Assembly: GCA_009387755.1 (NCBI GenBank)
Contig: GG697237.1
Coordinates: 36,657 to 100,656 of the forward strand
Direction of reading: 5' to 3'
From: Candidatus Micrarchaeum acidiphilum ARMAN-2
GTDB lineage: Archaea > Micrarchaeota > Micrarchaeia > Micrarchaeales > Micrarchaeaceae
DNA: 64,000 bases
The notes beneath the pieces were generated by a model. That model was not told the origin of the DNA, did not search any database, and saw only the letters and a program-made list of their open reading frames with translations. Within the stretch, counting starts at the first letter, position 1. The number at the start of each line of letters is the position of its first letter. Of this stretch, positions 2,147 through 64,000 are shown piece by piece. The position numbers and the translations under genes were made by a program.

Positions 2147-3112
2147 CTAAAGCCCTGCCAGGTAAAATGCGCCCAGCAGCACAGAAAGGAGTATGTTGTC
2201 GTCTACGTGCCGAAGTTTCAAGCTTTCTGCTATGCCGAGCGCTATACCAAGGGCGATGCCTGCATATCCCAGCAGCCCGTAACCGAAAATACAGGATACC
2301 AGCACAAAAGCCAGCGTGCCTGCAACTGTCTTGCCCTTGTTATAGTAAAGTTTTGTCCTGCCGAACTTTATTCCGAATATTGTGGCCGCAGAATCAGAAA
2401 AGAAAAGCACCACCATTGCAAACTCGACGAACCTCAGGCCTGTAACAATGCCTATTACAAGCATCGTGCCTATTGCCAGAAACATGGCACCAGAACCGTA
2501 GAAGTCCGCATCCCTCTCGAAGCTGCCTAAGAAGTCTGAGACCGCAGATTTCGGCCTGCCGAGCGCGAACGCGTTTACAGAATATCCAAGAAGTATAAGG
2601 GCGAAGGCAATCAGGAATCCCAAAGCTCCCCCAAGCCCGAAGGCAGCAATTATTATTATGCCGAACGTTATCTGAACGTAATCGCGCTTTACCTCAACCT
2701 TTTTGTTGTCTCTGGCCCGCGTGGTGCTGCGCTTCAGGTACTCCGGGAAGAATCCGACAAGGGTGCCTATTGCAAAAGGCAGCACGATATAGTGCTGGAA
2801 CCCCTGGGTCGTAGAGACCTCCAGAGCGCCGTAGACCAGCAGGAAAGCGAGAATTAGCCCGAACTTGCCCGCGCTCCTTAAATAATAATATACAAGTATC
2901 TCCGGAATCAGGAGTGCGAAGAGCAGGAATACTGAAATGGATACGCCCGGATATCCGTAAAGCCCAACAAGGAGGACCCAAACCGAGAGCAGTAAAAGAA
3001 TGCTTTTGGCTTCAACAGACCTGGATTTGCCCTTCATGAAGTAGACGTGGAAGCCTGCCAAAAGTCCGGAAGCAATGGCGAAAAGCGCCGCAAATATAAC
3101 ATAAATGCCCAT
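2147..3112 (-). CDS. Dolichol/phytol kinase-like polyprenol kinase
   Basis: Polytopic membrane protein of 321 residues. The C-terminal third carries the dolichol-kinase-type signature: SDSAATIFGIKFGRTKL, then KGKTVAGTLA, then a final VDDN in a hydrophobic context. The family transfers phosphate from CTP to a polyisoprenoid alcohol at the membrane. The N-terminal half has extra membrane segments without a recognised domain. ATG at 3112 follows GGTG by 6 nt, and that GGTG overlaps the stop of the preceding gene. It is the last gene of a uppS-DUF2070-kinase operon, which supports a role in making or recycling dolichyl phosphate. Exact substrate is inferred. Confidence 0.75.
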   Translation of the reverse strand: MGIYVIFAALFAIASGLLAGFHVYFMKGKSRSVEAKSILLLLSVWVLLVGLYGYPGVSISVFLLFALLIPEILVYYYLRSAGKFGLILAFLLVYGALEVSTTQGFQHYIVLPFAIGTLVGFFPEYLKRSTTRARDNKKVEVKRDYVQITFGIIIIAAFGLGGALGFLIAFALILLGYSVNAFALGRPKSAVSDFLGSFERDADFYGSGAMFLAIGTMLVIGIVTGLRFVEFAMVVLFFSDSAATIFGIKFGRTKLYYNKGKTVAGTLAFVLVSCIFGYGLLGYAGIALGIALGIAESLKLRHVDDNILLSVLLGAFYLAGL

Positions 3113-3121
3113 TCCCTGCAC

Positions 3122-4975
3122 CTATAAGTCGGATATAACTATCGCAGCAACAAGGAATCCAGCAATCACGATTATCGGTATTATGAGCTTGGCCAGCGCT
3201 ATCATCGAGCTGAGCGCAGTCATCACCTTGTCCCTCTGGTTCGCACCCCATACCCTGAACCTCTTTATTACCTGCCTGGAATGGCATACATCAACCGTCT
3301 CGGCGTCGAGGATTGCGGCTTCTACTGCCTTGTCTATTACGGGTGCGAGCTTCCTGTAGCTTGTCTTGCTGCCAAGCACGTTGCTGGCAGTGGATCCAAG
3401 TGAATTCACGTAGTGGGTGTCTGTGGTATACACCTCGCATCTAATCCCGAACTTCTCTTCGACATGCCTTATTATCGCAGACCTCAATTTCGGGGCCATG
3501 TTATTGGCGTTGAAATGAATCATTGCAAATCCAAGGTCTCCGAACTTGTAAAATCCCACATTGAGGTTTCCTGGTCCAAGGTCGTCAGGCATGCCCAGTG
3601 CGTGGTAAAGCTCTGTTTTTGCCGATCCGAAGATCAGCCTTTCCGTCTTCCTGCCTGCATCAGACATGCAGGCTTTCAGCGCCGCCGCATATTCCGCACC
3701 CGCAATGGAATTGGGCTTTACTGATGCGAGCTCTTCCTTCGGAGCCGACTCGTACCTGGAATTGTGCGCATCTATTAGTATCGGGTACCTGAAGCGCTCT
3801 TCCATCATCTTTCCAAACACTGCAGCCGCGCCTGCACCTATGTCCTCAGTCACCCTAGGCCCTCGCGTAAATGTGGCCATTGCAACATCGCCAAACGAAA
3901 ACATCTTTATCTCGGCGCTGCCTGACCTTCCCATAGCAAATGCAAAATGCTTTGCATGCACTGGCTCGCAGCTCCTAATTCCTGCGTCGAGCGCAGCCCT
4001 TACCTTTTGGTACTGGTCCGAAGATACGGCATTGTTGTCCTCGGTGACTGCGGTATGCATGACAAATCCTCCGCAGCCGTATCTGCTGTTTATGTACCTC
4101 TCAAGCATGTACGGAAAGTTGCTGCTCCCGAGCGTGCCAACAGGTCCGTAATGTATGTTAGGTATGAATAATATGGCCTTGAGCTTTTTGCCCGCCTTAA
4201 ATGCCACTACATCGGCATTTATGTCCGCGTATGCGTCCATGCCTGAGCCCCTGTCCTTTTCCGCCATCGACATGTTTATGGAAAATAGCCAGTTCTGCAG
4301 GAACCCTGAAAACATGTCTATGCCGCTGAATCCGAGGCTTTTCTTCAGCGGCGTATCAAGCACGTACATGATCATGTAGCTGATAAGGAGGAACACGAAT
4401 ATGCCTGCGTATAGCTTTATTATCAGCAGGTTGAGCGGCTCCCTCAGCACGAACACGAGGTTATTCGAAGGTATGAAAAACAGCACGTTGAGAGTGGGCT
4501 GTATGATTGCAATCGGCACGAGATTCAGCCTCTTGTTTATGAGCATCTTGTTGACGAACATCCACCACGCGAATATGGCTGCGTCGCCCAGCAGTATGAC
4601 CAGTATGTTAAAAGAGTAGATCCCGGTTATGAAGTATATCGAAGAAGCCAGCATGGCGAATATGGCGTATGTGAAAGAGGCTATGATGGTCACAAAAAGT
4701 ATGTACCTGACCTGTATATACCTTTTCAGCGTCTTTACCATCAGCATGGTCAAAGAGGCAGGGAGCATTATGGCTATGATGCCCCAGAGCAGGCCGCTTA
4801 TTATTATGTGCTCTGCAAGTGTCCCAAGCAGGTTGTAATGGAGGAGCACTGATGAAACTATGCCAGCCCCTATGGATATTAGGAAAAGGATAAGCACTAA
4901 TGCGCCGTTGCTGGGAAGGTTCTTGGAAAACAAGCCAATATACCTAAAAGGTCCCTCATAGGATTTGTCAGCCAT
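3122..4975 (-). CDS. DUF2070 family membrane protein
   Basis: 617 residues. The first 210 or so form six or seven membrane segments and the rest is a large soluble domain. Motifs such as NIHYGPVGTLGSSNFPYMLE and DAHNSR, and the overall length, match the archaeal DUF2070 family, whose function is not established. A last hydrophobic segment closes the protein at the C-terminus. It lies 21 nt after uppS and directly before the polyprenol-kinase-like gene on the same strand, so the three are probably one transcript. ATG at 4975 is preferred over GTG at 4981. Confidence 0.8.
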   Translation of the reverse strand: MADKSYEGPFRYIGLFSKNLPSNGALVLILFLISIGAGIVSSVLLHYNLLGTLAEHIIISGLLWGIIAIMLPASLTMLMVKTLKRYIQVRYILFVTIIASFTYAIFAMLASSIYFITGIYSFNILVILLGDAAIFAWWMFVNKMLINKRLNLVPIAIIQPTLNVLFFIPSNNLVFVLREPLNLLIIKLYAGIFVFLLISYMIMYVLDTPLKKSLGFSGIDMFSGFLQNWLFSINMSMAEKDRGSGMDAYADINADVVAFKAGKKLKAILFIPNIHYGPVGTLGSSNFPYMLERYINSRYGCGGFVMHTAVTEDNNAVSSDQYQKVRAALDAGIRSCEPVHAKHFAFAMGRSGSAEIKMFSFGDVAMATFTRGPRVTEDIGAGAAAVFGKMMEERFRYPILIDAHNSRYESAPKEELASVKPNSIAGAEYAAALKACMSDAGRKTERLIFGSAKTELYHALGMPDDLGPGNLNVGFYKFGDLGFAMIHFNANNMAPKLRSAIIRHVEEKFGIRCEVYTTDTHYVNSLGSTASNVLGSKTSYRKLAPVIDKAVEAAILDAETVDVCHSRQVIKRFRVWGANQRDKVMTALSSMIALAKLIIPIIVIAGFLVAAIVISDL

Positions 4976-56496: not shown

Positions 56497-58041
56497 TTGA
56501 ACTGCGGAGCATATATAAAATTTGACTATCTAAACCTAACTGTGAAAATATTTGGATTAACCTTTGAGTGGAAACCAAAAGAGGGAACGGAATACCTTAC
56601 ACATAACACTGTACATCAGAGCGTTGTGGGCCAGAAGGTTTATATCCCAACCAGAGTTATAAATAGAACTGTAAAAATAATTATAGATGGTAAGATTTTT
56701 CAAGGAAGTTTTTCTGTTTCTAAAGGAATATGCACGATAAGGGCAAAATTAGATAAGGAACATAGATTTTTAACATCTATAACGAATGTAAAATTTGATA
56801 AGAAAGTGACCAATTCAGAAAAAAAGATAGACTATTATGGAAAGAAATTCAAATACCCTGTTGTTTCTATAACATACACAGCAGAAGTAACAGATACCAA
56901 GAAAATGAAGGACATTACAGAAGATCTTAGTGGCTATTCGAATCTGGAAATAATGAAAAAGCTGTTCAAAGATGAGGTAATAAAATCAAAGGAGCCCGGT
57001 TTTATCTACGAAACCCGGCCAAAGGCCAAATTTGCAGAGTTTTCTAGGATAGAAGGAATGCTACTCGGCATAGCCATAGGCGACTCGCTCGGTAATACCT
57101 CTGAGAGTATGACACCAGAACAGAGAAAACAGGAATACGGTCTGATTACGGACTATCTCCCAAACAAGCATGCACACAATAAGCCAATAGGGCTGCCTAG
57201 TGATGATACCCAGCTTTCTTTTGATACTCTTGAAGTAATCCTAAACAAAGGAAGATTAGACATGGAAGAATTGGCCAAAGTGTTCTCATCGCACAGGATT
57301 TTCGGGATAGGTAAAACAGTCAAAGAGTTTCTTAGAAATTACAAAGATTATAAAGATCCATGGTATATGTCTGGGGTAGTGGGTGGTGCTGGAAATGGAG
57401 CACTGATGAGGATTGCACCTGTCCTCATTTCCTCCCTTGCAAACAAAACCGAGAACCCCAGGGCTGATACGATACTAGCTACTATGTTGACACATAACAG
57501 CCCATTAGCAATTGGTTCGTCCGTTGCATTCGTGAATATGTTATATGAATTTGTTTCTTTGAAAAAAGGAAGTCCAGATCCTGACAAATTGATTAAAGAA
57601 TTTGTAGAGATTCTTGAAGCCTTTACAGGCGAAGCTAGGTGTAATATCAGAAACACCAAAATAAAATCCAAATTTTCTGGCTCTGCCCCAACCTTTATAC
57701 GAGAAGCATTACAATTCGGGTATGAAAATAACATGACAGTAGAGCAGTTTGGCGAATACTTCGGTTCTGGAGCTTACGTCTTGGAAACAGATACAGTACT
57801 TCTTTACATATTATCAAAATACCTAAATGACCCAGAAGAGGCAATAATACAAGCAGTTAATTACACAAAAGACAATGACACGATGGCTTCAATAGTTGGT
57901 GCTGCAATGGGCGCATTATACGGAAAAGCTAGGTTTAAAGAAAGTTGGATAACTAAATTATCAGGAAGGATAAGAGAAAATGATGATGGAAAAATCTTTG
58001 AGATGATAGATAGGACAAAAGAATTTCTGAGCGGTAAATAA
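56497..58041 (+). CDS. ADP-ribosylglycohydrolase with unrecognised N-terminal domain
   Basis: 514 residues. From about residue 185 it is a DraG/ARH-type hydrolase: GMLLGIAIGDSLG, metal ligands in SDDTQLSFDT, GGAGNGALMRIAPV, and DNDTMASIVGAAMGALYG. This family removes ADP-ribose from proteins or nucleic acids. The first 180 residues are beta-rich and unrecognised. The start is doubtful: TTG 56497 opens the frame, but a TATA box (56455-56463) points to ATG 56481, which is one frame off and would join if one A in 56516-56519 were absent. Confidence 0.8.
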   Translation: MNCGAYIKFDYLNLTVKIFGLTFEWKPKEGTEYLTHNTVHQSVVGQKVYIPTRVINRTVKIIIDGKIFQGSFSVSKGICTIRAKLDKEHRFLTSITNVKFDKKVTNSEKKIDYYGKKFKYPVVSITYTAEVTDTKKMKDITEDLSGYSNLEIMKKLFKDEVIKSKEPGFIYETRPKAKFAEFSRIEGMLLGIAIGDSLGNTSESMTPEQRKQEYGLITDYLPNKHAHNKPIGLPSDDTQLSFDTLEVILNKGRLDMEELAKVFSSHRIFGIGKTVKEFLRNYKDYKDPWYMSGVVGGAGNGALMRIAPVLISSLANKTENPRADTILATMLTHNSPLAIGSSVAFVNMLYEFVSLKKGSPDPDKLIKEFVEILEAFTGEARCNIRNTKIKSKFSGSAPTFIREALQFGYENNMTVEQFGEYFGSGAYVLETDTVLLYILSKYLNDPEEAIIQAVNYTKDNDTMASIVGAAMGALYGKARFKESWITKLSGRIRENDDGKIFEMIDRTKEFLSGK

Positions 58042-59246: not shown

Positions 59247-59648
59247 ATGACAGACTTTCTGACAAACTCTCAGAGAAGCTTCAACATGTCAAAAATACGG
59301 AGTCGTAATACGGTTCCAGAACTTAAACTAAGACGAGCTCTTAGAAAATTAGGGTTTATATACCAGCCAAAACACATATTTGGCAAACCAGACTTTGCTA
59401 ACAAAAAATCTAAAATTGCTGTTTTCATAGATGGCTGCTTCTGGCATGGCTGCCCCTACCACTATATAACACCAAAAACTAACTCTGCCTTTTGGTCACA
59501 AAAAATAAAGAAAAATATAGCAAGAGATAGAAAAGTGGGAAAAACACTTAAGAAAGAGGGATATAAAGTATTCAGATACTGGGAGCATACTGTAGAAAGA
59601 AATCCAGATAAAATACTACTTACTTTATCTCACGCTGTTCAGAAATAA
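59247..59648 (+). CDS. vsr: Vsr-type DNA mismatch/patch endonuclease
   Basis: 133 residues: SFNMSKIRSRNTVPELKLRRALRKLGFIYQ, KPDFANKKSKIAVFIDGCFWHGCPYH and FRYWEHTVERNP are the Vsr blocks, with the catalytic Asp in KPDF and the zinc-site residues in CFWHGC. Classical Vsr nicks T:G mismatches formed by deamination of 5-methylcytosine. Its 3' end overlaps that of the cytosine-5 methyltransferase gene (convergent, 10 bp), the usual functional partner. Confidence 0.92.
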   Translation: MTDFLTNSQRSFNMSKIRSRNTVPELKLRRALRKLGFIYQPKHIFGKPDFANKKSKIAVFIDGCFWHGCPYHYITPKTNSAFWSQKIKKNIARDRKVGKTLKKEGYKVFRYWEHTVERNPDKILLTLSHAVQK

Positions 59649-60625
59649 TTCAAAAGGTTTTCTGCAATTCTTCTAGCAAGAAGTGGGGGCACAGCATTTC
59701 CGACTTGCGTGTAAATCTCTCTTTCAGAGCCACAGAACTTGTAGTTTTTGGGAAAACTCTGCAGCCTAGCGCATTCAGATGGTGTGAGACGTCTTATCTT
59801 CTTATTAGAATACTTTACCAGTGCTTCTGCGCCGTCTTTCCAGTATCTTGCGGATATTGTATTTGACGGCTTCGAGAAATCCAAAAACTGCCAGCCGAAT
59901 CCAATGTTTCTTTCTGCATTCTTTTTTTTACGCCTTATAAATCCGTTAATCATTCTTTCAGAATAATAGAATCTCTTACTGACTTTTTGCGGAGGCAATA
60001 AAAATTGCTTTGAAGGCACCCAAGGTTTCAGACCATTTGTCGGATGCTCTGAATGCGTCGGTACTGGGGGCAATATCGCTTTTTCTGCTTGCCTACGATT
60101 CACCCCGATAAAAAATATCCTTTGACGTTTTTGTGGAACGCCGTAGTTTGCGGCATTTAAGGTGTGTATTGTTGTTCTGTATCCAATACTATTGAAATCA
60201 TGAAGTATTTTCTCGCCAAAAGTCATTTTGCTATCAACTAATTTGAGTGAGAGAAGTCCACGTACGTTTTCCATGACAAAAAAATCGGGGGCCATCCCTT
60301 TTACAATTCTTATGAACTCCCTGAAAAGAGAATTCCTAGGATCTGCTGGATTTCTGTTGCCTCCCATGCTAAAACCTTGGCATGGCGGGCCACCTATAAC
60401 AACATTCACTTTTGCTTCTGAAACTAGAGTTTTTAACTGCCCAACAGTAAGTGACCTCATATCAGCTTCAAGCCCGATGCTTTTTTTGTGATTGCGCGAG
60501 AATGTATCAACAGCAGGCTTCCAGTTATCTACTCCCGCAAGTATCGAGTAGCCAGCCTCTTTAAATCCCTGACTAAATCCTCCTGCCCCGCAGAAAATAT
60601 CTATAACTGTCGGCTGTTCTTTCAT
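59639..60625 (-). CDS. DNA (cytosine-5) methyltransferase
   Basis: 328 residues. Motif I DIFCGAGGFSQGF, IV GGPPCQGFS (catalytic Cys), VI FVMENVRG, VIII PQKRQRIFFIG, IX RRLTPSECARLQSFP, X QVGNAVPP; the variable region sets sequence specificity. ATG 60625 follows GGTG by 7 nt, 16 nt after the double-GHKL gene on the same strand. No adjacent conventional restriction endonuclease is seen. Confidence 0.94.
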   Translation of the reverse strand: MKEQPTVIDIFCGAGGFSQGFKEAGYSILAGVDNWKPAVDTFSRNHKKSIGLEADMRSLTVGQLKTLVSEAKVNVVIGGPPCQGFSMGGNRNPADPRNSLFREFIRIVKGMAPDFFVMENVRGLLSLKLVDSKMTFGEKILHDFNSIGYRTTIHTLNAANYGVPQKRQRIFFIGVNRRQAEKAILPPVPTHSEHPTNGLKPWVPSKQFLLPPQKVSKRFYYSERMINGFIRRKKKNAERNIGFGWQFLDFSKPSNTISARYWKDGAEALVKYSNKKIRRLTPSECARLQSFPKNYKFCGSEREIYTQVGNAVPPLLARRIAENLLNYF

Positions 60626-60641
60626 TATAACTCACCATATA

Positions 60642-62846
60642 CTATTTGAAAACTATCTCAAAAGCAACATTTCCGTATTTCTCCTTTGTTCTCTTCTCAT
60701 CGACTATTCCTATTGTTGCACCATACTCTTTAAGTATCTGGGCAGAGATATACATTCCGAGTCCTCTCCCTTCAAACTTCCTTGACTGGAATGGAATCCA
60801 GAATAGTGATGTCTTGAGACTTGGGTCTAGTGCCTGACCGTTATTCCCTATAACCAGTCTTTTGGCATCACCCTGAACATCAATATACAGTTCTCTTTTT
60901 TTGTCCTTGTTTGTTCTTTGCGAAAGCCAGTATATTGCGTTACATATTACGTTGTCAATCACCTGTGCAAGCGCAGATTTCCGCATTTTAACCTTGAAGT
61001 CTGAATTTCTGTATTTTACAACCTCTATGCCCTTTTCTTTTATCTCTTCATTGTGTCCTTCCAAGACCAATTTAATTGTGTCGTATACTGATATAATGTC
61101 TTCACTGCTTTCACTCGTTACGAACCTGAATACGTCCATCAGCTTTGTTTCGTTCATCATTTTGTTTAAGATAAAAACAAGGTTTTGCAGGCTGTCTCTG
61201 ATATCTGGATTCCCAGATTCTCTGACATTTTCATCAAGTTTTTTCATGTAATGGTTTAGAGCAGATACTGAGATGTCCACTTCGTGTGTAAATCTTTCCG
61301 AAGCAAGACCCATTCCTAGAAGATGATAGAAAATTGCTGACTGCTCCTCTCCAGCATCTTTAAGGTTGTCATATAAAATCTTCCATGCCCTCCTAGAGTC
61401 CTCGAATGCCTTGTTAGCAAGCTGAGCTTCTTCTTTAAGCTTAGAGAGTTCCTGCTTTTGTATGACTACCTGATCTTCTCCGAGTTTGAACTGTTCTTCT
61501 TTTGGTTTTTCAAATGTCTTTTCAACTTTTTCCAGTTTTTTTTCCAATTCCTTTAGTCTTTTCTTTGTAGTTGCTTCAGCTTCCTCTTGCTTCTTCTTGG
61601 CTGCGCTTTTTTTCTCATCACTTATCTTTGTTCTCTCTGCTTGGCTCTGACTTTCCAAGAGATCCACTGCACCAAGCACAAAGTTCCTGAAGTCGCGATA
61701 TGCAGTATTGTTAAGTAGACCTTCACGGTTCGTCTTATCCTTGAGCTGTGGATTGCCAAGCTGATCTATTTCAATAAGTCCTATCATTTGGCTTCTGTCA
61801 AATCTTCTTCCCGGTGAAAGCACTCTTCTTTTGTCTAAGCCGAGCCAGTCATCATCTTCATCACCATAAGGCAGGACTCGAAAGTTGTCTCTATATACGC
61901 TGACACCTGCCAGCGCATTAAGCCTGTCCGCATTAAGCCCGTATTGTTGCAGCGCCTGGGGATCTTTTAACCAAGCAAACAGGGTTCCTTTAAACGGACC
62001 ACACGATGGAGTAGTCTCCTCCCATTCCTTTGGATTTATCTTTGACCAGAGAAGTTCCTCGTTGGTTGACTTCTCCACCGTATTGTCTGCATTCCGCTTG
62101 TAAAAAGTGTATTTGCATCTGCCTTCTTCATTTATGCTGAAATCCAGTTTGAACATATATTTTTCCAGTATCTGTTCGAGCTTCAGGTTCTCATATTGTC
62201 TGTACTCTGGTATTGATAAAACAACTCTAAAGTCTTTGTTTTCCCTTGTAGGAAGAAGCATTCGTATAAGTGCTGTCTGGAGTCTTTCCAAATCTTTTAT
62301 ACTCCAAGCGTATTTAGATCGTGACATCTTCAGTAGCGTGCCTCCATTTTTTCCAGTAAAGTACTCTGGTTTTCTACTCTCGATGTCTATATTAATATCA
62401 TCAACAAATACGTCTTCTTTGTCCCAGTCATCCCAGTTTATTTTTGTATAAAACTCCGTATCGCTGCCCTCAGGTTTCGTTATCATTTCAAGGATTCTGC
62501 CAAGTCGCTGTGCAGCAAAACGCCCAACACCTTTTTCGCCTAGCGGCAGGCGTTCTTTTTTAGTTCTCTTCTTAGATTGCTTCTGTTTGTCCTTCACTCC
62601 TGTTGCTATGTCGAGCCAAGGGCCACGGATTGTTTCTTCACTCATTCCGACTCCGTCATCCTCCACCGTGATGACGGTCTTTTCTGGGTTTTTCAGGTTC
62701 TCGAGAGAAACTTTTACCTCATCGGCATCAGCGTCATAACCGTTTTTTATAAGTTCGATAAGACCTACCGTATTGTCTCTTATCGACTCCTCACCAAGTA
62801 TCTGAATTATCCTTGCCTTTGCCCTGAAAGAAGACCGCTTCGCCAT
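60642..62846 (-). CDS. Large ATPase with two GHKL domains
   Basis: 734 residues. The N-terminal GHKL ATPase has ELIKNGYDADAD (N box), EDDGVGM and GEKGVGRFAAQRLG. A middle domain and a long coiled coil (about 395-470, AAKKKQEEAEATTKKRLKELEKKL...) follow. The C-terminal part looks like a histidine-kinase ATPase: QVIDNVICNAIYW, a G1-like VIGNNGQALD and FEGRGLGMYISAQIL. So it is MORC/Hsp90-like at one end and kinase-like at the other. ATG 62846 follows GGAGG and lies next to the HerA stop. Probable genome-conflict protein. Confidence 0.82.
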   Translation of the reverse strand: MAKRSSFRAKARIIQILGEESIRDNTVGLIELIKNGYDADADEVKVSLENLKNPEKTVITVEDDGVGMSEETIRGPWLDIATGVKDKQKQSKKRTKKERLPLGEKGVGRFAAQRLGRILEMITKPEGSDTEFYTKINWDDWDKEDVFVDDINIDIESRKPEYFTGKNGGTLLKMSRSKYAWSIKDLERLQTALIRMLLPTRENKDFRVVLSIPEYRQYENLKLEQILEKYMFKLDFSINEEGRCKYTFYKRNADNTVEKSTNEELLWSKINPKEWEETTPSCGPFKGTLFAWLKDPQALQQYGLNADRLNALAGVSVYRDNFRVLPYGDEDDDWLGLDKRRVLSPGRRFDRSQMIGLIEIDQLGNPQLKDKTNREGLLNNTAYRDFRNFVLGAVDLLESQSQAERTKISDEKKSAAKKKQEEAEATTKKRLKELEKKLEKVEKTFEKPKEEQFKLGEDQVVIQKQELSKLKEEAQLANKAFEDSRRAWKILYDNLKDAGEEQSAIFYHLLGMGLASERFTHEVDISVSALNHYMKKLDENVRESGNPDIRDSLQNLVFILNKMMNETKLMDVFRFVTSESSEDIISVYDTIKLVLEGHNEEIKEKGIEVVKYRNSDFKVKMRKSALAQVIDNVICNAIYWLSQRTNKDKKRELYIDVQGDAKRLVIGNNGQALDPSLKTSLFWIPFQSRKFEGRGLGMYISAQILKEYGATIGIVDEKRTKEKYGNVAFEIVFK

Positions 62847-62847
62847 T

Positions 62848-64000
62848 TTAATCCTCCGCATGTCTTCTCTTACTTGAACATATTCTTATATCGCAGAATA
62901 TTGGCTGGTTCTTGAAGTACGAGCTTACCAGCAGGCAGTTACCCTGCCCCAAAATGGGCACTTGGCTCCACACATTTTCATTCACAGAGCCCGTGGAGCT
63001 CTTCAGTGCATTGAGATTCTGCTGGCCCGTTGTCTGGTGTATGAACTTTGTATTGCAAAGCTCATATATTTCTGGTGGAAGATGTGAGGGCTGTTGCGTT
63101 ACAAAACACAGACTTACCCACCTCTTTCTTCCTCTTCTTGTTATCTCTCTGATTGCATTGAGTGTTTCCGTCATTTTCCCTGAAGTATCTCTGCTGACAA
63201 GAGTATGGGCTTCCTCTATGACAATCAGGATTTTGTGTGCAGCCCCCTCGAATTCCTTACCTTTCTTCAGCCCGAATATACCACGAAGTAGATGCATAAT
63301 GACAATATTATTTACCCAAGGACTGAAAGCACCACTCAGATCTACTACGCTCACCTTCTGTGGTTGGAGCATTTCTTTAAAGTTAAGGTAGTCCCCTTTG
63401 TCAAATATTCCGTAGCTCTTCAGACGGTTAAGTTTTCTGATAAGGGCATAGTAAGTGCTCTTCGGACCTTCGATTTTCTTCTCTGAAAGTTTGTCACGGA
63501 TTCGTTGTATGACTTCCGTAAGCTGTACACCCACTGCAGGCCCTATATCTTCATCACCTGCCACAAAGTCGATTGCGGCGACCTTTGCCTTCGCGTTATC
63601 CCCTGTTCTGCTTTCTTTTTGTTCTTCGATGCTTGCTGTTATCTCAAGAAATCTGTCCATCTGTGGATCGCTCAAATCCATAATTTCTCCAAGTATGAAC
63701 GGCTCTAGATCACTAAATCTCACGCTGAATGGTTTTGAGTCGCTGCGTGAGCTTTCATTTCCGATAGTGTGGTACACTGAAAGATGGTCAACCCCCTCTG
63801 GCTCTATCCCAAACCTCTTAAAGATGCCGCCGTGTGACACGGTCTGCTCTGATTTTTTGTCCATGTCGACATACTCACCCTCGACATCCAACACAACCAC
63901 CGACCAACCGCTTTTTACCGCTTCTTCTATGAGTACTTGGCTTGTGTTAGTTTTGCCGGAACCCACAGTGCCAAAGATCCCCACATTTCTGGGCAGACCA
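62848..64000 (-). CDS. HerA-type DNA-translocating ATPase, 5' end beyond window
   Basis: 384 codons are present and the frame is open to the right edge (GLPRNVGIFGTVGSGKTN). Walker A is GTVGSGKTN and Walker B ILIVIEEAH; arginines in ITRRGRKRW and the sensor FVTQQPSHLP fit HerA/FtsK-like hexamers. The N-terminal barrel lies outside. It is directly followed by the double-GHKL ATPase and cytosine methyltransferase in one operon. No NurA nuclease is seen in the window. Confidence 0.88.
   Translation of the reverse strand, partial: GLPRNVGIFGTVGSGKTNTSQVLIEEAVKSGWSVVVLDVEGEYVDMDKKSEQTVSHGGIFKRFGIEPEGVDHLSVYHTIGNESSRSDSKPFSVRFSDLEPFILGEIMDLSDPQMDRFLEITASIEEQKESRTGDNAKAKVAAIDFVAGDEDIGPAVGVQLTEVIQRIRDKLSEKKIEGPKSTYYALIRKLNRLKSYGIFDKGDYLNFKEMLQPQKVSVVDLSGAFSPWVNNIVIMHLLRGIFGLKKGKEFEGAAHKILIVIEEAHTLVSRDTSGKMTETLNAIREITRRGRKRWVSLCFVTQQPSHLPPEIYELCNTKFIHQTTGQQNLNALKSSTGSVNENVWSQVPILGQGNCLLVSSYFKNQPIFCDIRICSSKRRHAED

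Follow-up and report, generated by a model that had tools for sequence, protein, structure and literature searches.

The window analyzed here is a 64,000-nucleotide stretch of the genome of Candidatus Micrarchaeum acidiphilum ARMAN-2 (contig GG697237.1, positions 36,657 to 100,656). Its right edge (position 64000) is the exact end of that contig (C4), one of 8 in an assembly of 1.01 Mb. Next to this edge lies a compact minus-strand operon encoding a HerA-type translocase, a double-GHKL ATPase and a C5-cytosine DNA methyltransferase (DCM), which is faced by a convergent gene for the mismatch endonuclease Vsr. We analyzed these four genes together with a fifth, designated X, that is located on another contig (C3) of the same genome. 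The window features are as follows.

59247..59648, plus strand: Vsr, very-short-patch T:G mismatch endonuclease, 133 aa, convergent with the operon (TIGR00632, E 3.3e-37; PF03852, 1.9e-24)
59639..60625, minus strand: DCM, 328 aa, final gene of the operon (PF00145, 4.3e-70)
60642..62861, minus strand: double-GHKL ATPase, 739 aa, or 734 aa from the ATG at 62846 (HATPase_c_3 and HATPase_c; structure matches)
62415..62762, minus strand: N-terminal HATPase_c_3 domain of the GHKL protein, residues 34–149 (PF13589, 7.2e-19; 166-sequence alignment)
61284..61286, minus strand: DHp-like histidine H526 of the GHKL protein (FTHEVD), invariant in 166 aligned sequences
60690..60977, minus strand: C-terminal HATPase_c domain of the GHKL protein, residues 629–724 (domain search)
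60843..60845, minus strand: codon 673 of the GHKL protein, Asn at the position of the G1-box Asp that contacts adenine (166-sequence alignment)
62848..63999, minus strand: HerA hexameric translocase, C-terminal 383 aa, 5′ end open at the contig end (PF01935, DUF87/HerA, 8.5e-19)
63949..63972, minus strand: HerA Walker A motif GTVGSGKT (read from the translation)

These coordinates agree with a preliminary description of the locus, which had reported three minus-strand genes spaced by 1 and 16 nt and facing a Vsr gene with overlapping 3′ ends (DCM and Vsr lie to the left of 60642, the start position given there). The 16-nt gap separates DCM from the GHKL gene; the 1-nt gap between HerA and the GHKL gene applies if the latter begins at the ATG at 62846, while a start at the ATG at 62861 gives a 14-nt overlap; and the 3′ ends of DCM and Vsr share 10 nt. 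The DCM displays FGG-, PCQ-, ENV- and GNAVPP-type motifs and Vsr displays KPDF and FIDGCFWHGCP motifs (each seen by eye), and the TIGR00632 score of Vsr is 127.4 bits vs an NCBIfam cut-off of 97.85. HerA is without its first ∼164 residues because the contig stops at position 64000; the remaining fragment is 58% identical to residues 165–544 of the HerA of a Thaumarchaeota metagenome-assembled genome (MAG) and retains an intact Walker A motif. The operon holds no ordinary type II restriction enzyme, as previously described: a weak PADLOC REase_II match of the GHKL protein falls on its ATPase part.

Relatives of the locus were found by a contig search with an alignment of the GHKL family, and the flanking open reading frames (ORFs) were scored against the four window proteins. 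(A query of viral contigs with the single GHKL sequence, whose patterns are not conserved, gave no relatives and was rerun with the family alignment.) The best GHKL relatives, 32–41% identical over their full length, include those of the Thaumarchaeota MAG (locus L038), an Ignavibacteriae MAG (L039), a Bacteroidetes MAG (L040), Hydrotalea flava (L042) and an Ignavibacteria MAG (L045). In all five, an orthologous HerA gene precedes the GHKL gene by 1–5 nt, indicating that the grouping in the window is not due to chance, and the search for co-location proposed in the preliminary description thus finds the methylase-linked cassette recurring in other genomes. HerA is full-length (544–545 aa) in four of the five; in L039 the set is split over two contigs (L039 and L212), both of which end within HerA. 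Directly upstream of HerA in every one of the five stands X, an unannotated protein of ∼360 aa. A DCM gene lies upstream of X, adjacent to it in the four bacterial loci and with an opposite-strand glycosylase gene intervening in L038, so that DCM is linked to all six X-HerA-GHKL loci when the window genome is counted; DCM or amino-methyltransferase genes are linked to most of the GHKL relatives.

The six HerA-linked GHKL proteins all fall within one 9-row clade (SH-aLRT 99), and among close GHKL kin X accompanies those with HerA linkage (5/5) and none of those without it (0/3, two of them in DISARM-like loci). The other three rows of the clade comprise two proteins encoded beside DrmA, DrmB and DrmC (L041 and L044; PADLOC scores up to 1416 bits) and one found with an HNH_2 endonuclease (L043). 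The loci L041:3090-11657 and L044:1343-12458 are DISARM-like, the latter adding a glycosylase and a DCM fragment, and possibly represent a GHKL-containing DISARM variant. An AbiV-type HEPN gene, possibly a further defense gene, lies directly downstream of the Thaumarchaeota operon (L038:11813-12586). Double-GHKL proteins also occur in plasmid islands of phosphorothioation type (L024, Polaromonas pPNAP02; L029, Chlorohelix plasmid), together with FtsK/SpoIIIE (DndH-like), PAPS-reductase and DUF4007 proteins.

The preliminary description had suggested that an effector might be encoded beyond the window edge, and this is borne out by an X orthologue on C3 of the window's own genome (C3:624-1694, minus strand, 399.7 bits, E 3.7e-120; ORF C3:618-1712). 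X orthologues match no Pfam family at E-values up to 1, including NurA (PF09376), and no convincing PADLOC model (E up to 0.1); a PDB sequence search with X returned a sole match that was judged to be due to chance. An AlphaFold2 model of X (pLDDT 77, pTM 0.76) was compared with known structures. The top Foldseek match is NurA of S. solfataricus (5e-8), and all eleven matches below 0.001 are NurA chains and TdpB; VIA-align gives Z scores of 16.5–17.5 for NurA (the five top rows), 14.6 for TdpB and ∼9–11 for a background of EndoV and Argonaute proteins. The fold predicted for X is that of a NurA nuclease. An invariant residue, Asp85, is located in the first core strand (GIDGT) and, judged by topology, may correspond to Asp49, the catalytic residue of NurA from T. 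kodakarensis (PMC12977600). It had been proposed that the methylase might belong to an ordinary type II system with its nuclease just outside the window; the nuclease encoded there instead appears, from its model, to be of the NurA fold.

A diverged X-HerA pair occurs at L211:7806-13934 (genome G673), beside an amino-methyltransferase gene and without a GHKL gene. Because the diverged X precedes HerA there without GHKL, X and HerA appear to form a module of their own. (The same pair lies near sigma-like and ImmA/IrrE-like genes, and its HerA is split in two frames. On C3, a DUF4145 protein is encoded upstream of X, at 2943-3557, and possibly belongs to the same island.)

X is rare. Among 290 genomes of the window's phylum only the window's own gave a match, among 395 of the H. 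flava phylum only H. flava and one genome with a distant homologue, and among 349 of the phylum of the Thaumarchaeota MAG only that MAG; searches of plasmids and viral contigs gave none. This distribution bears on the possibility that the genes form a DNA repair or recombination operon, with end processing by NurA and HerA, mismatch handling by Vsr and DCM, and no role in defense. The classical assignment of archaeal HerA-NurA is to end resection, and PF09376 has no match anywhere in the window genome, so X-HerA could serve repair there. Against this stand the sporadic occurrence of X in the window's own phylum, the base composition of the operon (GC ∼0.41–0.45 vs 0.47 for the window) and the association of the same GHKL clade with DISARM, and we consider a purely repair-related function very unlikely.

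The model of the GHKL protein predicts a MORC/Hsp90-like GHKL domain with an S5-like module, long helices (coiled coil or DHp) and a C-terminal ATPase resembling that of histidine kinases. Foldseek matches its N-terminal part to MORC3 (2.4e-10), MORC2 (2.4e-11), SMCHD1 (2.2e-11) and also MORC4, and its C-terminal half to HK853 and ZraS. The E-box Glu and N-box Asn of the N-terminal ATPase, like the DHp histidine, are invariant in the 166 aligned sequences. Of these, 160 retain the Asp of the C-terminal G1 box; Asn takes its place in the window protein, in that of L038 (both archaeal) and in three viral-contig sequences. By analogy with other GHKL ATPases this substitution weakens ATP binding, and for that reason the archaeal GHKL protein probably uses its MORC-like ATPase only, a correlation drawn from two archaeal cases.

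These features also bear on a reading of the GHKL protein as a two-component-like paraMORC/HEF_HK regulator of a restriction-modification island, acting mainly as a histidine kinase that controls expression. The invariant DHp histidine and the presence of a response-regulator-like gene after the GHKL gene in the four bacterial HerA-linked loci would fit such a role, as would the linkage of HEF_HK and response-regulator proteins to DCM/Vsr islands described in PMC8011034. The HEF_HK profile itself (PF19191) was not called in the window protein and reached 20.8 bits in L042, below its cut-off of 24.1. No response regulator homologue was detected in the window genome or in the Thaumarchaeota MAG, and because both archaeal GHKL proteins also carry Asn in place of the adenine-contacting Asp, it is unlikely that the archaeal protein works through its kinase half alone. 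We therefore consider regulation as its main role to be improbable.

The reading we favor, and hold to be probable, is that the NurA-like nuclease, HerA, the double-GHKL ATPase and DCM, encoded in that order on one strand, form with the convergent Vsr a five-gene, methylation-linked system directed against invading DNA. DCM would methylate a cytosine motif in host DNA as a mark of self. A hexameric HerA would pump double-stranded DNA into a dimer of the NurA-like nuclease, which would degrade DNA recognized as foreign. The MORC/paraMORC-like GHKL protein may act as an ATP-driven dimeric clamp that senses a trigger (which could be unmodified sites, DNA ends or intermediates of replication) and then licenses HerA-NurA; this sensing is the weakest step of the mechanism. 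In bacterial members the response-regulator-like protein would pair with the kinase-like half of the GHKL protein, while the archaeal members have no such partner and have an altered ATP site in that half.

Vsr, or an HhH-GPD glycosylase in some relatives, would fix the T:G mismatches that arise from deamination of 5-methylcytosine, a step expected from the known chemistry of Vsr. Vsr is encoded nearby in L042 and L045, the intact H. flava set (L042) running Vsr-DCM-X-HerA-GHKL-response regulator, while L038 and L040 encode HhH-GPD base-excision glycosylases close by, and L039 contains a comparable frame; since the glycosylase replaces Vsr in some relatives, a role in repair fits Vsr, and the earlier suggestion that Vsr might be the effector can be set aside.

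Several observations weigh against this interpretation. X has no sequence match to NurA, and its identity depends on an AlphaFold2 model derived from an alignment of seven sequences. The assembly lacks an intact HerA gene: C4 carries the C-terminal 383 residues of HerA, C3 carries ∼36 N-terminal codons (a HerA-like start, MPEPVGYVDFDDVGMKDGELLVRIPANEMNSVRRGQ, 4 nt downstream of the X ORF), and ∼125 codons are found in neither. Bases 1 to ∼505 of C3 encode part of a trypsin/HtrA-like protease on the opposite strand (Trypsin_2, 1.5e-34), abutting the HerA start. The tip of C3 may thus be an assembly chimera, or HerA may truly be broken in this genome. Finally, the window has DCM downstream of the GHKL gene, whereas in the other loci it precedes X, and the identity of the window DCM to the DCMs of the HerA-linked relatives compared is only 24–32%; because of this differing position and low identity, it may be an independent neighbor.

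Since a search for overlap at the end of C4 found no shared k-mers, gene content and orientation, both consistent with C4 being followed by C3, are the basis for regarding the two contigs as adjacent. (A weak 35% match of the C3 tip to HerA residues 6–69 was rejected as further HerA sequence past about residue 36, the remainder being the antisense of the trypsin-like ORF.) The copy in the window genome might accordingly be decaying, its HerA gene interrupted by a rearrangement with the protease gene, an explanation that is compatible with a defense system in the family as a whole. The run of HerA into protease-coding DNA and the composition of the protease tip (GC 0.51 vs 0.41 for X) would agree with such a rearrangement. 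The junction, however, falls at the tip of a contig, a common place for chimeras, the Ignavibacteriae MAG (L039/L212) also breaks inside HerA, and X, GHKL, DCM and Vsr are each intact open frames with conserved motifs; we regard decay as unlikely.

The variability of DCM raises a further alternative: that the locus combines two units, a NurA-HerA-GHKL defense module blind to methylation (as is HerA-DUF4297, which degrades host and phage DNA alike; PMC11291478) and an unrelated solitary DCM-Vsr pair. The position and subfamily of DCM do differ between the window genome and the other five, and a genome of the same order (L019) combines DCM and Vsr with a single-GHKL protein, HerA being undetected there. 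DCM is nevertheless present in every X-HerA-GHKL locus despite these swaps, and a DCM or amino-methyltransferase gene is linked to most GHKL relatives; a linkage that is kept while the enzyme is swapped is as expected for the specificity modules of restriction systems. We therefore judge two independent units to be a rather doubtful account. The window DCM shares 49% identity with one from a genome of its own order. At L019:2002-5647 (genome G033), DCM adjoins a short single-GHKL paraMORC (566 aa); the locus also holds an apparently truncated Vsr frame (82 aa) and a small frame resembling a PD-(D/E)XK nuclease, without a Pfam match.

Elsewhere in the window, an ADP-ribosylglycohydrolase gene with an N-terminal extension of ∼185 aa (56497-58041) lies near the island in low-GC DNA, and an RNaseP_arch match is also present.

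We conclude that the cassette is real and conserved, and that it appears to be a modification-linked defense variant assembled from known parts. A bolder possibility, which we put forward tentatively and consider to fall somewhat short of an even chance, is that it represents a new class of immunity dependent on modification: a MORC-like double-GHKL ATPase would read cytosine methylation and activate HerA-NurA, proteins of this one GHKL clade would serve with HerA-NurA as well as with the DISARM helicase core, and archaea would have discarded the arm formed by the kinase and response regulator. A methylation-linked system of this kind would link HerA-NurA (whose archaeal role is disputed; PMC12977600), prokaryotic MORC-like ATPases and methylation-guided restriction. 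The tie between HerA-NurA and a methylase makes the idea that HerA-NurA serves defense rather than resection directly testable, while a GHKL clade common to DISARM-like and HerA-NurA loci suggests an exchangeable sensor or licensing part, with a bearing on eukaryotic MORCs at methylated DNA.

The preliminary description had not recognized the set as a named system. This holds to the extent that no named match was found in PADLOC, Pfam or the literature searched; the ingredients themselves are known, from paraMORC/HEF_HK-DCM-Vsr islands (PMC2292703, PMC8011034) and from HerA-nuclease defense (PMC11291478). Those islands likewise place HATPase_c_3, HEF_HK-like and HATPase_c domains beside DCM and Vsr, and Iyer et al. 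propose that, in restriction-modification systems, paraMORCs form the DNA loops between sites of recognition and cleavage (PMC2292703). Unlike the present locus, the islands are described, in the passages concerned, with SF2 helicases or ordinary nucleases (HerA is not mentioned in PMC2292703, nor DUF87 in PMC8011034), and the archaeal form described here is without the Response_reg_2 partner. Type II restriction-modification systems share the C5 methyltransferase, while the adjoining nuclease here has, in its model, the NurA fold. DISARM is similarly a DCM-linked multi-gene defense system, and close GHKL kin lie beside its genes; here HerA-NurA stands in place of DrmA, DrmB and DrmC, for which PADLOC gave no match among the window neighbors (those on the C3 side were searched with Pfam only). 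A mad8 match had pointed to the MADS system, but other HerA profiles score higher.

TdpABC couples DNA phosphorothioation to the HerA-like TdpA and the NurA-like TdpB. It resembles the present locus in pairing a DNA modification with a motor of HerA type and a nuclease of NurA fold, and the X model matches the TdpB fold (PDB 8wfd), less strongly than it matches NurA; here C5-cytosine methylation replaces phosphorothioation, and the double-GHKL protein and Vsr are added. The HerA-NurA pairs of archaea and Deinococcus (for example that of T. kodakarensis, PDB 9x1l-9x1p) likewise have a HerA gene adjoining that of a nuclease whose fold the X model shares, and the T. kodakarensis complex pumps double-stranded DNA and degrades both strands, for which an antiviral role has been suggested (PMC12977600). 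X differs in being recognized by neither PF09376 nor any other profile tried, and is associated with DCM, a MORC-like ATPase and Vsr instead of forming a housekeeping pair. The GHKL-nuclease Shedu protein VcSduA is a proven anti-phage protein that requires both activities, including its GHKL ATPase (PMC12137116). HerA-DUF4297, a proven anti-phage system, also needs both of its activities, and in HerA-DUF4297 and HerA-SIR2 alike a HerA hexamer drives a partner effector against phage (PMC11291478); the arrangement described here would follow the same plan, with a NurA-fold partner in place of PD-(D/E)xK or SIR2 and with a methylase and a GHKL ATPase attached.

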